Source of the DNA: Arcobacter sp. FWKO B
GTDB lineage: Bacteria > Campylobacterota > Campylobacteria > Campylobacterales > Arcobacteraceae
Reading direction: 5' to 3'
Length of the DNA: 64,000 nucleotides
Assembly (NCBI RefSeq): GCF_014844135.1
Contig: NZ_CP041403.1
Location: 558,001 to 622,000, forward strand
The translations under genes and the position numbers were made by a program. The stretch's first letter is position 1. Each line of letters starts with the position of its first letter. This document shows positions 51,370-56,919 of the stretch, piece after piece. The notes beneath the pieces are model-generated. The model was not told where the DNA came from and ran no database searches. It worked only from the letters and a program-made list of their open reading frames with translations.

Positions 51370-52056
51370 TCAAACTTTTAGCAGATAACCAAAGTCTTTT
51401 ACTGTTACTATAATATCTTCTCCAATTTTTTTTCGTAAACGATATACCATATTTCTCATAGTATTTGTATCAACAGATTCAAAAAAAACTCTATCTTCAA
51501 TTAGCTCTTTTGAAATAAGTGTATTCTTTTTTGCAATTAAAAGTTCAAAAAATAGTGATTCTTGTTTACTTAGTTGGATTATATTATTTTTATTAACAAT
51601 AATCTTATTAATAAAATTATATTTTATATTGTCAGTCAAAATAATTTCTAATCTATTATTATCTTCAAGACTTTCAATAGCATTATTTAGTGCTAACAAT
51701 ACTTTATCATAAGATAAAGGCTTCTCAATATATGTAATAAGATTTAACTCTATTGCTTTAAGTAGCTTTTCCTTATCAGTATGACCACTTAACATTATTA
51801 TAGGTATTGCTTTATCTATTTTTCTTATCTTTTTTGCTACTTCATATCCATCCATAAGTGGCATCACATAATCTAAGATTATAATATGAACAACCTCAGT
51901 ATTAAAAATATTTATTGCTTCAACTCCATTTTTTGCAAAAAAAACATCATTGCACATCATTGATAATGTTTTTCCTACATATTCCCTTATTGTTATATCA
52001 TCTTCAGCATAAAGAATATTCAATTTTTTTAATATATCTAACTTTTTTATTTCCAT
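51370..52056 (-). CDS. Response regulator, OmpR-like, orphan
   Basis: A 228-aa protein with receiver domain ~10-125 (AEDD pocket, phospho-acceptor D62 in IIILDYVMP, Lys in IEKPLSYD) and a C-terminal winged helix (~140-228, LSKQESLFFELL and TVKDFGYLLKV). No kinase gene is adjacent. It is divergent from tpsA, so it could regulate that gene, but this is inference from position only. Confidence 0.9.
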   Translation of the reverse strand: MEIKKLDILKKLNILYAEDDITIREYVGKTLSMMCNDVFFAKNGVEAINIFNTEVVHIIILDYVMPLMDGYEVAKKIRKIDKAIPIIMLSGHTDKEKLLKAIELNLITYIEKPLSYDKVLLALNNAIESLEDNNRLEIILTDNIKYNFINKIIVNKNNIIQLSKQESLFFELLIAKKNTLISKELIEDRVFFESVDTNTMRNMVYRLRKKIGEDIIVTVKDFGYLLKV

Positions 52057-52219: not shown

Positions 52220-54940
52220 ATGACAAGATTTAAATGTGACTTTGGTTCAAGATTTAGGATTCTAAAGGGTGGTAAAATATCTTTAGTAGTATCTGCACTT
52301 CTTGGCAGTACTTCTTTATCTTTTGCTGCACCAACTGGTGGAGTAGTTACAAGTGGTAATGCGACTATATCTCAAAATGGAAATACTACAAATATCGTCC
52401 AAACTACAAATAAAGCCACTATTAACTGGAATAGCTTTTCTATCGCACCAAACGAAACAGTAAATTTCAATCAACCAAGTATTAACTCTATAACTTTAAA
52501 TAGAATAGTAGGAAATGAAAAAAGTATTATTGATGGTGCTCTTAATGCTAATGGTCAAGTTTGGATACTAAACTCAAACGGAATACTTTTTAATAGTAAT
52601 GCAAAAATCAATACAGCAGGACTTCTAGCTACTACAAAAAATATCACTGATACAGACTTTAATGCAGGTAATTATAAATTTAGTGGCAATAGTACAGAGT
52701 CTGTTATAAATATGGGAACTATTGATATAAGTGATAGCGGATATGTAGCTTTATTAGCAAATACAGTACAAAATGATGGAACAATAAAAGCTCATAAAGG
52801 CACAGTTCATCTTACAGGTGCAAGTGAAGCAACTATAAATCTAAATGGTAACTCAATAGTAAACTTAACAGTAGATAAAGGTATCTTAGATGCTTTAGTA
52901 GAAAATCAAGGTGCTATACTAGCTGATGGAGGGAAAATATATCTTACTACAAACGCAGTTGATGAACTCCTTAAAGGTGTGGTAAATAACACAGGTATTA
53001 TAGAAGCAAAAAGCCTAGATGATATAAGTAGTGAAGTGATACTTTTTGCTCATGGTGGAACAGCAAAGATAGGTGGAACTATACACTCTAAAGATGGCTT
53101 TGTAGAGACAAGTGGAAGATACTTTGACTTTTTGGGAGCAGACATAAAAGCTGGTGAATGGTTGATAGATCCAGTTAATATAACTATTGACAGTACTTTG
53201 GCTACTGCTATTGAAAATGGATTAGCAAGTGGTAATGTAAAAATTACGACTGATACAACAGATGGTACTCGCTTAGATACGACAACAGGAGAAAGTGATA
53301 CTGAAGATGAGGGAAATATAAATGTCAATTCAGCAATTAGTTGGTCATCTAATCACACTCTAACTCTTTCAGCTTACAATGATATTAATGTGAATGAAAA
53401 TATTACACACACAGGAACATCGGCTGGAGGAGTAATTTTTCTATATGGTCAAGGAACAGCTAACGGTGGAACAAGTGCCTATAATCTAGCTTCAGGTAAA
53501 ACAGTTGTGTCTCCGTCAATTCAATGGAGAAAAGGTAGTGATTTAAACTCATATAGATACGCTATTGTTAATAATGATTTATTTATAGGTAATAAATATA
53601 TTGAATTAGGTATAAGTTACTCTAATGGAGGTAAATTTGGCTCAAGTTATACTCCTAGTTTATTTTTTGGACGACAAACTCCTAGTGGTATAGGTATGGT
53701 AGGTGATGCAGATGGTTTTGGTGAAGGAAATGATTTAAGAATTGATTACTTCTTACCAGGAAGTCCAGCAGAACAATTTACAGCAGGATACGGTGATTAT
53801 ACAACTGCAGCTAAAAATTTTGCTTCAGATATAAATGGATATGAATTATTAGGATTAAATGATAATAATCAACTAGAAATGAAACTTACTTCTACTGTTG
53901 GTGATATGAAAGTAGAACAGACATTTACTTTAGGTTTGAGTGATAAATATTTTAACAATAGTGTAACTTTAACAAATAATGGAAGTAGTACCATTACGAA
54001 TCCAACATTTATAAGAAGTTTTGATCCAGATAATACTGTAGATATGGGTGGAAATTATAGTACAATTCAGAAAATAGAAAGCACTATAGTAAGTGACGGA
54101 GCAGCAGCTGTAAGTGCTACTAGTATAGCTGGTGATACATACGAGACAACATCAGGAAGTCAATCAAAGATAATATATTATTCAACAGATAAAAAAGCAA
54201 CTGTTGGTTATGGAAGTGTATTTTTTAGTGGAAATAGTAATGCGATTTCAACAATGATAACAACTGCTAATAGTTTATCAAAAAATGATACTGCTACTGG
54301 AGATATTGGTATTGGTATTATTTTTCAACCTGATTCGTTAGTTGCTAGTTCTTCAACAACTTTTAATTATTTAACATCATTAGATAATAGGGATATGTCA
54401 ACCATTCTGTCTGAATTAAATGAAGTAGCAATAGATAGTAGTACCCCTCAGACATCAACTCCTCAACAAATAACAAACAACAATGATAATTCGATACAAA
54501 AAGTTATCACGACTATAATCAACTCTCAACAAATTAAAGTTGATACACCAAAAATAATACAACCTGTATTCACACCTACACAAACTCCTTTTATAAGTGT
54601 AATACAAATTCCTGTTTCTACTTTATCAACTGGAGTAGTAAGTACTCCTTTAGCAAATATTGCTCTTAAACTAGGAGTAAGTCAAGGTGACAATGTATCA
54701 GTAGTATCTGCACCAGAAACTGGTAAACAAGCGGAAAAGATAACACTTGCTGAAATTGCTCAAATCAAAACAAATGGCAATAAAGAAAATACTCAAAGCT
54801 CAAATATCGAAGTACAAGAGACAAGAGTAGCACTTGGTGGTGGTTCACTTGTAGAGCTTGTAAACGGTGGAGTAAGCTTACCTGAAGGTGTTGATCAAGA
54901 ATTTTATGTGGTAAAAAGTAGTCTAAGAGGAAGAAATTAA
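52220..54940 (+). CDS. Two-partner secretion exoprotein (TpsA), filamentous haemagglutinin N-terminal domain
   Basis: A 906-aa secreted protein. The extended signal peptide (residues 1-36, ending SLSFAA) is followed by a TPS domain (~37-300) with TINWNSFSIAPNE and LNSNGILF (N118-G121, in place of the usual NPNGI). Short filamentous beta-helix repeats continue to ~430. Residues ~440-740 differ: strand-rich, with YFLPGSPAEQFTAGYGDY, TLTNNGSSTITNP and RSFDPD; I do not recognise this domain. The tail (~745-906) is Thr/Ile/Gln-rich. The protein is short for a TpsA. Its stop overlaps the tpsB start (TAATG). Confidence 0.88.
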   Translation: MTRFKCDFGSRFRILKGGKISLVVSALLGSTSLSFAAPTGGVVTSGNATISQNGNTTNIVQTTNKATINWNSFSIAPNETVNFNQPSINSITLNRIVGNEKSIIDGALNANGQVWILNSNGILFNSNAKINTAGLLATTKNITDTDFNAGNYKFSGNSTESVINMGTIDISDSGYVALLANTVQNDGTIKAHKGTVHLTGASEATINLNGNSIVNLTVDKGILDALVENQGAILADGGKIYLTTNAVDELLKGVVNNTGIIEAKSLDDISSEVILFAHGGTAKIGGTIHSKDGFVETSGRYFDFLGADIKAGEWLIDPVNITIDSTLATAIENGLASGNVKITTDTTDGTRLDTTTGESDTEDEGNINVNSAISWSSNHTLTLSAYNDINVNENITHTGTSAGGVIFLYGQGTANGGTSAYNLASGKTVVSPSIQWRKGSDLNSYRYAIVNNDLFIGNKYIELGISYSNGGKFGSSYTPSLFFGRQTPSGIGMVGDADGFGEGNDLRIDYFLPGSPAEQFTAGYGDYTTAAKNFASDINGYELLGLNDNNQLEMKLTSTVGDMKVEQTFTLGLSDKYFNNSVTLTNNGSSTITNPTFIRSFDPDNTVDMGGNYSTIQKIESTIVSDGAAAVSATSIAGDTYETTSGSQSKIIYYSTDKKATVGYGSVFFSGNSNAISTMITTANSLSKNDTATGDIGIGIIFQPDSLVASSSTTFNYLTSLDNRDMSTILSELNEVAIDSSTPQTSTPQQITNNNDNSIQKVITTIINSQQIKVDTPKIIQPVFTPTQTPFISVIQIPVSTLSTGVVSTPLANIALKLGVSQGDNVSVVSAPETGKQAEKITLAEIAQIKTNGNKENTQSSNIEVQETRVALGGGSLVELVNGGVSLPEGVDQEFYVVKSSLRGRN

Positions 54941-56625
54941 TGAAAAAACTAATAACTCTATCATTTATAACAGCTAGTAGCTTACTAGCACAACCAACTA
55001 TTACAGATATAGAGAAATCTATATCTACTCCAAAAGAAGTAGAAACTAAAGCTCCCTCTTTAGTAGAAGTAGGTGGTAAAGAAAAATATGCTCCCGTAAT
55101 GGCTGATGATGAAAGCGGTAAGACTATCGAGGTAAAGGATTTTTCTATAGAGGGTAATACTCAAATCAAGGATGATGTACTAAAAAAGCTCCTAAGTGAA
55201 TATGTAGGAAAACCTCTTACATTTTCACAACTTCAAGAAACAGCGTCACTTATCACAAAATATTATAGAGAAAAAGGTTACTTTGTTGCAAGAGCTTATA
55301 TACCTATACAAGATATTAAATCTAGTAACGGTATAGTAAAAATTGCTGTCATAGAAGGTAATTATGGAGAATTTAAACTAACAAATAACTCTAAAGTAAA
55401 AGATAGTATCGTTCAAGCCATGTTTGATGATGCAAAAACAAGAGGTAATATAGTAAGTACGAATACACTAGAAAGGTCTATGCTTATTATCAATGATACT
55501 CCAGGTGTTATGGTTACTCAAGCAGATGTAAGACCAGGGAAGGAAGTAGGTACAAGTGATTTTATAGTAACTACAGAGCCTTCTGCTCCTTATAGTGGAT
55601 ATATTGTGGCAGATAACTATGGAAGTAAATATACAAGTGTATATAGAACTATGGCAGGGGGAAGTATCAATAACCCTTTTAAAATCGGTGATAAACTAAC
55701 TCTTAGTGGACTATATGGAATGAACTCAAACCTTGATAACTATAAAGCTTCGTATTCATTTCCAATACTCCCAAATGGACTAAGGGGAGAAATAGCATAT
55801 TCTGAGACAAACTATAAGTTAGAAAAAAAATATGTAACCAATCAAGATATAAAAGGTGATTCTCAAACACTTGAAGCAACTTTATCTTATCCAATTATAA
55901 GAACAAGAGTACAAAGTCTTTATACAACTTTTACATATACTTCAAAAGATATGAAAGATACAAATGATGGAGTACAAACAAACAAAAAAACACTAGAATC
56001 TTTTAACTTAGGATTAAACTATACAAAAAGTGCATTACTAGCAAATCTTGATACACAATATAACGCTAGCATAAACCTAATAAGTGGTAAGCTGAATATC
56101 AAAGATGCCACAGCAAAAACTCAAGATACAAGTGGAGCAAAAACAAATGGCTCTTATGAAAAACTAGCTCTAACACTAGCTAATACAACTATACTACACC
56201 CAAAAATATCACTAGAAACATCTCTAACATATCAACAAGCTCTAAACAATAAAAACCTAGATGGTAGTGAAGATATGAGTATAGGTGGAAGTAATGGTGT
56301 AAGAGTATACCCTGATAGTGAAGAAAGTGCAGAAAATGGATATATTATAAGAGCTGAAAGCTTTTATACACTTCCATCTTACAAAGGGCTAGACCATAAA
56401 GTATCACTATTTGTAGATACAGCAAAAGTAAAACAAGAAAATAATACTACAAATGAAAAAGCAAGACAATTGTCAGATATTGGTATAGGATATCACACAT
56501 CATATAAAAACTTCTTTGCAAAAGCACATATAGCAACTATAATAGGTAACTCTAAAGTAACATCTGAAGCAGATAATAAACAATACAAAACTAAGTTCTT
56601 AGTTCAAGCTGGGATGGTGTTTTAG
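54940..56625 (+). CDS. Two-partner secretion outer-membrane transporter (TpsB, ShlB/FhaC family)
   Basis: A 561-aa Omp85-superfamily transporter for the upstream TpsA. It has a signal peptide (1-17) and POTRA domains ~63-141 (IEVKDFSIEGNTQI, YYREKGYFVARAY) and ~143-216. A 16-strand barrel follows, with a terminal Phe (AGMVF), the usual outer-membrane assembly signal. It is coupled to tpsA. The G of its TAG stop is the first base of the modular intergenic repeat. Confidence 0.92.
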   Translation: MKKLITLSFITASSLLAQPTITDIEKSISTPKEVETKAPSLVEVGGKEKYAPVMADDESGKTIEVKDFSIEGNTQIKDDVLKKLLSEYVGKPLTFSQLQETASLITKYYREKGYFVARAYIPIQDIKSSNGIVKIAVIEGNYGEFKLTNNSKVKDSIVQAMFDDAKTRGNIVSTNTLERSMLIINDTPGVMVTQADVRPGKEVGTSDFIVTTEPSAPYSGYIVADNYGSKYTSVYRTMAGGSINNPFKIGDKLTLSGLYGMNSNLDNYKASYSFPILPNGLRGEIAYSETNYKLEKKYVTNQDIKGDSQTLEATLSYPIIRTRVQSLYTTFTYTSKDMKDTNDGVQTNKKTLESFNLGLNYTKSALLANLDTQYNASINLISGKLNIKDATAKTQDTSGAKTNGSYEKLALTLANTTILHPKISLETSLTYQQALNNKNLDGSEDMSIGGSNGVRVYPDSEESAENGYIIRAESFYTLPSYKGLDHKVSLFVDTAKVKQENNTTNEKARQLSDIGIGYHTSYKNFFAKAHIATIIGNSKVTSEADNKQYKTKFLVQAGMVF

Positions 56626-56906
56626 GAACCCCTGTTTCTGACTGGGCTTGTCTTCGATTTTTTTCACCAGTCCAAGACTGGCGTTCCAAAAATGTAACTC
56701 TTACGGAACGCCAGATTTATCTGGTGAAAACCTACCAGTCTTGTGCTTACACTCTCTGTGAGAAAGACTTGCGTTCCAAAAGAAATCAAGAAGAAACCAG
56801 ATAAATCTGGCGTTCCACTTGGAACCCCAGTCTCCGACTGGGCTTGTCCTAGCTTTTTTTCACCAGTTCTTGAGCTTTGCACTCTCTGTGAGAAAAACTG
56901 GCGTTC
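56625..56906. repeat. Cluster of four GGAAC/GTTCC modular inverted-repeat units
   Basis: Units at 56625-56687, 56705-56777, 56797-56816 and 56821-56906. Each carries GGAAC(C/G)CC and/or its complement GGCGTTCC at the ends, with internal stems CCAGAT..ATCTGG or CCAGTC..GACTGG. Shared modules are GGGCTTGTC and CTCTCTGTGAG. It fills the whole gap between convergent tpsB and clpB. Short ORFs across it are artefacts. Confidence 0.88.
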
Positions 56907-56919
56907 TATAAACAGTGTT

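Follow-up and report, generated by a model that had tools for sequence, protein, structure and literature searches.

The window analysed here, a stretch of 64,000 nucleotides from Arcobacter sp. FWKO B (contig NZ_CP041403.1, positions 558,001 to 622,000), carries a gene pair, tpsA-tpsB, which probably encodes a surface adhesin exported by the two-partner secretion (TPS, type Vb) pathway, with a beta-supersandwich domain as its exchangeable binding head. This domain is a module of TpsA at residues ~454-738 (53579-54433; positions are those of the window, and both genes lie on the forward strand). It recurs in other TpsA proteins and in secreted or surface proteins of other kinds.

The tpsA-tpsB Gene Pair

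The first gene, tpsA (52220-54940), encodes a secreted exoprotein of 906 aa, and the second, tpsB (54940-56625), an Omp85-type outer-membrane transporter of 561 aa with POTRA domains. The stop codon of tpsA and the start codon of tpsB overlap as TAATG. The original prediction had placed a compact TpsA with a normal TPS domain and its TpsB at 52220-56625, and the open reading frames (ORFs) lie exactly there. As in type Vb exoproteins, TpsA begins with a signal peptide followed by the TPS secretion domain (PF05860, E 2.4e-34, residues 36-267). Matches among PDB sequences are limited to the secretion domains of EtpA (E 2e-44), HxuA, and HMW1 and end near residue 290. TpsB matches ShlB (PF03865, E 3.2e-26) and POTRA_2 (PF08479, E 2.2e-18), and tpsA is thus adjoined by a gene for POTRA domains and an Omp85-type barrel, as expected of a cognate TpsB. 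All other module-bearing TpsA loci examined likewise have a tpsB homologue directly 3' of tpsA. The protein is indeed compact beside the two other TpsAs of the same genome, which are CdiA-like and have open frames of 1756 and 1863 aa.

The Module as a Domain Family

The central region of TpsA had been described as about 300 unassigned residues at ~440-740, and no Pfam or NCBIfam family covers them; these two collections find nothing in TpsA beyond the TPS domain. Searches with the module against Pfam, NCBIfam, and PDB sequences gave no usable family. Seven modules searched in Pfam at E up to 10, with filters that drop weak hits, did not match the profile of the GH94 N-terminal domain. The region is real, whereas its limits required revision: the end lies at ~738, and the start was moved to ~454 because homology with the non-TPS adhesin L007 begins there, at FLGGNYIELGI.

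In an alignment of seven module sequences, identity is 44-67% and over 60 columns are invariant; the signatures are FxGxxYIExG, GxGMxGDADGF..GxDLRxDYFLPGxPxExF, and RSxDPDNTxD. In the window's own protein the latter two read GDADGFGxGxDLRIDYFLPGSPAExF and RSFDPDNTVD. The strings quoted in the earlier reading, YFLPGSPAEQF, TLTNNGSSTITNP, and RSFDPD, are present and fall in conserved parts of the family. When the alignment is extended to 19 proteins, D496 (GDADGF), G514 (LPGxP), and D602 and D604 (DPDN) are invariant. Profile searches of single genomes find the module in TpsAs at E-values of 1e-158 to 1e-129. Given this degree of identity, the number of invariant columns, and these E-values, the module cannot be regarded as a product of chance.

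Predicted Fold of the Module

AlphaFold2 was run on residues 428-739 with five sequences and gave a module model with a predicted template modelling score (pTM) of 0.70, in which core residues 515-739 mostly have a predicted local distance difference test (pLDDT) of 65-93. In Foldseek, the best match of the core has E 1.4e-7 and probability 1.00. By VIA-align, the core superposes on the N-terminal domain of GH94 phosphorylases (3s4c, 2cqs) with Z 14.1 and a root-mean-square deviation of 3.1-3.3 A over 215-218 residues. Further matches are GH116, GH52, and cyclic glucan synthase; weaker ones are YidC and an aldose epimerase homologue. The module core is therefore predicted, with moderate model confidence, to belong to the beta-supersandwich fold (galactose-mutarotase-like / GH94-N). 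Over the stalk, the matches of the full-length model are EtpA, HMW1, and HxuA, and the stalk is accordingly predicted to be beta-helical; over the module, they are GH116 and GH94.

The N-terminal beta-sandwich domain of GH94 extends to about residue 270 from residue 1 and contributes two helices to the sugar pocket of the partner subunit, beside the catalytic barrel (PMC5309861). The module resembles this domain in the predicted fold of its core. It differs in that identity is only 10-14%, a sequence family match is missing, the (alpha/alpha)6 barrel is absent, and the module is secreted as a presumed adhesin payload. HxuA and EtpA, TpsAs of solved structure, share with the present protein the N-terminal secretion domain. 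In HxuA, beta-helix continues throughout with inserted loops (PMC4873976), whereas here a separate globular supersandwich is predicted after the stalk.

Where the Module Recurs

The module is present in other TpsAs of Campylobacterota and Betaproteobacteria at 34-67% identity. Apart from the window's own genome, 2 of 99 related genomes contain close relatives. In the phylum Campylobacterota, 7 of 397 genomes contain the module, a count that includes its own genome and one remote copy. In the order of the carrier L005 there are 3 of 399 and in its phylum, Pseudomonadota, 7 of 398, with L005 counted in both. The GTDB contigs of L004-L007 come, in this order, from a Campylobacterales bacterium, Paucibacter, Azonexus, and Oryzomicrobium. 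No module relative was found in viral contigs, phages, or plasmids, so that there is no sign of carriage by any of them.

The module is independent of TPS proteins. In L007, a protein of 2516 aa, it lies between a DUF4347 domain and cadherin/He_PIG repeats. In L030-L033, which are proteins of 1693-2182 aa, it stands towards the C-terminal end. An N-terminal FecR domain and cadherin-like repeats are present in the two of these that were scanned, L030 and L032; the N-termini of both are weakly LapA-retention/BapA-like, the LapA-retention match of L032 being sub-threshold. Some retained adhesins of LapA/BapA type in Pseudomonadota thus carry the same module; unlike TpsA, these have no TPS domain. 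LapA/BapA-type adhesins are exported by type I secretion. Remote copies (E 1e-7 to 1e-12) are found in two stand-alone secreted proteins with PEP-CTERM-type C-termini, L034 (337 aa; its PEP-CTERM Pfam match is just under the cut-off) and L028 (314 aa), and in a secreted protein of 526 aa, L038. All contexts of the module are secreted or surface proteins. The search in other secreted proteins that the original prediction had called for was therefore productive, and its view of the region as a folded beta-rich payload rather than filament is borne out by the predicted supersandwich and by the recurrence of the module where there is no TPS beta-helix.

Constant Ends and Exchanged Payloads

TpsA ends in a conserved, cysteine-free tail (54815-54919), which aligns as R-V-x-L-...-L-V-N-G-G-V-x-L-P-x-G-V-x-Q-E-F-Y-V-V. 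A search of 298 Campylobacterota genomes with a profile of this 36-aa motif (VxL...LVNGGVxLPxGVxQxFYV) gives 24 loci, spread over 19 genomes; the open frames are 781-5602 aa long except for one frameshifted copy. Four of the loci carry the module. Wherever the TPS domain can be read in the other 20, it is of the same kind, and where the contig permits, a tpsB usually lies downstream. Their payloads are of several sorts. GLUG repeats are present in 14 by simple motif count, some with MBG/YDG as well, and four loci have other beta-helix or repeat types. In the remaining two, L075 and L084, there is a second domain of ~330 aa with the motifs LQPWYY, RLWVGTRDDWV, and WYYAA and without a Pfam family. 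Since HHalign aligns this domain with the module (probability 93.8%, 293 columns, 16% identity), it is probably a divergent supersandwich. Two very large TpsAs of about 5600 aa, L086 and L087, combine over 40 GLUG-like repeats with the conserved C-tail. In the betaproteobacterial carriers of the module, the C-terminal motif is related but shorter: V-[NA]-G-G-[LI]-x-L-P.

The clearest case of exchange is a pair of genomes of the same genus, G040 with the module and G050 with a beta-helix-like payload. Their TpsAs are 93.6% identical over the first 280 aa and 89% over the last 93 columns, their TpsBs are 94.3% identical, and the DNA flanks on both sides are 80-93% identical. The middle aligns with a score of 72, which is within the range of shuffled sequences (mean 60, maximum 91). 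Judged from these sequences, the pair shows payload replacement, and the exchange appears to be recent in places. The G050 copy of tpsA is intact; in the orthologous gene of G014 (L073), the frame is broken at two places.

On a TpsB tree of 26 loci, the module label changes state 6 times, and at least 4 of these changes are forced by well-supported branches. A single clade of module carriers is rejected by the approximately unbiased test (p-AU 1.4e-38), a signal that comes in part from the deep split between Betaproteobacteria and Campylobacterota. Mixed pairs also occur inside families (L040 with L074, and L077 with L082). These change counts do not separate repeated loss of an old module from gain.

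The closest known parallel is provided by HMW1A/HMW2A of Haemophilus influenzae, which resemble the present system in TPS export, a beta-helix stalk, and a variable centre between conserved ends. In HMW1/HMW2, the variable central binding region (555-914 in HMW1A) lies between more conserved ends and is exchanged by recombination (PMC4849778). There the exchanged units are divergent alleles, whereas here they are whole unrelated payloads. A C-terminal disulfide holds HMW-type TpsAs in TpsB (PMC5422565, PMC4873976). The present TpsA departs from this arrangement: its sole cysteine is residue 6, in the signal peptide, so that the mature protein is cysteine-free, and it has a different conserved tail. 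This tail stays constant while payloads differ, and it shares one conserved block with tpsB; it may accordingly act together with TpsB, for example by anchoring TpsA or by halting translocation.

Tentatively, and with a little less than an even chance of being correct, the constant TpsA chassis of Campylobacterota may be regarded as a display platform in which recombination swaps the whole central payload between unrelated folds, namely two beta-supersandwich types, GLUG repeats, MBG/YDG repeats, and beta-helix. On this view, the supersandwich would represent a class of adhesin head that is new, and the C-tail would be a TpsB-linked anchor of a new kind.

Proposed Function and Alternative Readings

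The adhesin class is proposed from architecture, and TPS adhesins with functional domains after the helix are established (PMC5422565). TpsB would recognise the N-terminal TPS domain and thread TpsA outward. Outside the cell, TpsA would fold into a short beta-helix stalk followed by the globular supersandwich head. The head would bind an extracellular ligand, possibly a glycan, and would not be expected to catalyse. The tail would stay with TpsB and keep the head at the cell surface. Recombination would place various payloads, this head among them, between the constant ends (the TPS domain on one side, the C-tail and tpsB on the other), and lineages could in this way alter the binding target while keeping the same export machinery. 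No relevant literature was found on TPS proteins in Arcobacter or Sulfurimonas, nor on a link between filamentous haemagglutinin and mutarotase folds.

Of the three possibilities left by the original prediction, adhesin, enzyme, or toxin-like domain, the first is favoured and the other two are disfavoured. Binding is likelier than catalysis because the catalytic barrel is absent, the module has no histidine, and its companion domains are of adhesin type. The (alpha/alpha)6 barrel of GH94/GH116 would have to follow the module, where only ~166 residues remain, mostly of low confidence in the model. Galactose mutarotase requires His residues. The module contains none in residues 454-738, which speaks against a mechanism of the galactose mutarotase / aldose 1-epimerase type. 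In non-TPS proteins its companions are the cadherin-like and retention modules of adhesins.

Several points weigh against the adhesin reading. The module model was built from five sequences, and its pLDDT averages 62.6. Values stay under 50 over the first 87 residues (428-514), a stretch that includes the most conserved motif, GDADGFG. The transition segment at 320-453 and the tail have no confident model. A shared fold shows no function, supersandwiches being found also in YidC and in mutarotases. Finally, a metal site, or an active site that has escaped recognition, would likewise explain why the acidic and DPDN motifs are so strongly conserved.

It is unlikely that the module is a secreted sugar enzyme (an epimerase/mutarotase, lyase, or hydrolase) and TpsA an exported enzyme rather than an adhesin. 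Almost all fold relatives are carbohydrate-active enzymes, and the very strongly conserved Asp/Asn/Arg motifs (GDADGF, DPDN) resemble a functional site. However, the matches fall on the non-catalytic N-terminal domain of GH94/GH116, the barrel and the mutarotase histidines are lacking, as described above, and remote copies retain few of the motif residues.

It is likewise doubtful that the acidic motifs form Ca2+ sites and that the module serves chiefly as a structural spacer, or as a cap closing off the beta-helix, without a specific ligand. The D-x-D-G and D-P-D-N motifs resemble Ca2+-binding loops, and the four residues D496, G514, D602, and D604 are the most invariant of the 19 modules. 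A glycoside-hydrolase supersandwich is known to have calcium loops of the form Dx[DN]xDG (PMC3123361), but GDADGFG differs from this canonical loop, and its assignment in the module was dropped as the spacing is mismatched. Moreover, 285 aa is a lot for a simple cap, given that the domain is conserved across phyla and found on unrelated surface proteins. In LapA-like proteins, the module comes after cadherin-like repeats, not after a beta-helix.

Very little credence can be given to a contact-dependent toxin system of CdiA type with the module as the toxin, even though TPS export, polymorphic payloads, and the two CdiA-like TpsAs of the same genome recall such systems. CdiA/BcpA share with this protein the TpsA class and exchangeable modules; in them a C-terminal toxin, accompanied by an immunity gene, forms the variable part, whereas here the variable part is central and the conserved tail lies behind it. 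The module is also found in stand-alone PEP-CTERM surface proteins and cadherin-type adhesins. As had been pointed out from the sequence, no immunity-type gene is seen downstream of tpsB: the next gene is clpB, on the opposite strand, and no ORF of at least 80 aa lies between them. No toxin signature was seen either, and membership in the CdiA family was rejected.

Hardly any weight remains for an irregular continuation of the beta-helix: TpsAs are mostly beta-helices and part of the segment before residue 515 is poorly modelled, but the structure prediction and fold search originally suggested gave supersandwich matches in place of a continuous helix, with no beta-helix protein among the best 50, and the module occurs in proteins without a TPS beta-helix.

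Other Parts of TpsA and the Surrounding Locus

The extended signal peptide (residues 1-36, 52220-52327, beginning SRFRILKGGKISLVVSALL) was read from the sequence and is conserved in the Campylobacterota TpsAs L002-L004 and L035-L040. The TPS domain that follows (52325-53020) is predicted to be a right-handed beta-helix, which 8cpk, 2odl, and 4i84 match in the PDB and in which the full-length model mostly has pLDDT 75-96. The end of the beta-helix and the transition segment (residues 268-453, 53021-53578) were delimited by alignment and the full-length model. Here pLDDT is about 75-87 up to residue ~340 and lower beyond, and the ETSG, WLIDP, and QWRKGSD motifs are common to betaproteobacterial TpsAs. 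Between module and tail lies a low-complexity linker rich in Ser, Thr, Gln, Asn, and Pro (residues ~739-865, 54434-54814), with pLDDT mostly below 50 and poor conservation between TpsAs.

The next gene upstream of tpsA, at 51370-52056 on the opposite strand, encodes a response regulator whose C-terminal region is DNA-binding-like; a homologue with 51% identity is found at the matching place in G001, a genome of the same genus. At that locus (L111), the same cytochrome bc1 and response-regulator neighbours are accompanied by type I secretion-like genes in place of tpsAB. It also holds the start of a protein with the LEPR-XLL-like N-terminus LEPRILFDGA, to which the N-terminus of the module-bearing adhesin L007 is similar. 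A comparison with empty sites downstream of the bc1 genes found that gene order is not kept in relatives, and the insertion of tpsAB is for this reason undatable. After tpsB, the intergenic stretch 56625-56911 contains a 47-nt direct repeat (87% identical), an 18-nt family in four copies, and a perfect 21-nt inverted repeat, and looks like a dispersed intergenic element. At the loci of the two CdiA-like TpsAs, L044 (genome positions 1841000-1853000) and L045 (1390000-1402000), C-terminal fragments are repeated downstream and resemble orphan toxin cassettes.

Significance

The fold, the modular swapping, and the conserved C-terminal tail go beyond what had been noted from the sequence. New are the domain family, the fold predicted for it, its distribution across two phyla and several secretion types, and the finding that entire folds are exchanged while the ends stay constant. 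TPS proteins, LapA-like adhesins, and PEP-CTERM surface proteins share a domain that Pfam lacks and that now has a predicted fold, and payload exchange in the middle of TpsA is seen outside toxin systems. The conserved tail offers a testable prediction of how cysteine-free TpsAs remain on the cell. If the head does bind glycans, it would represent a lectin-like use of an enzyme-type fold.

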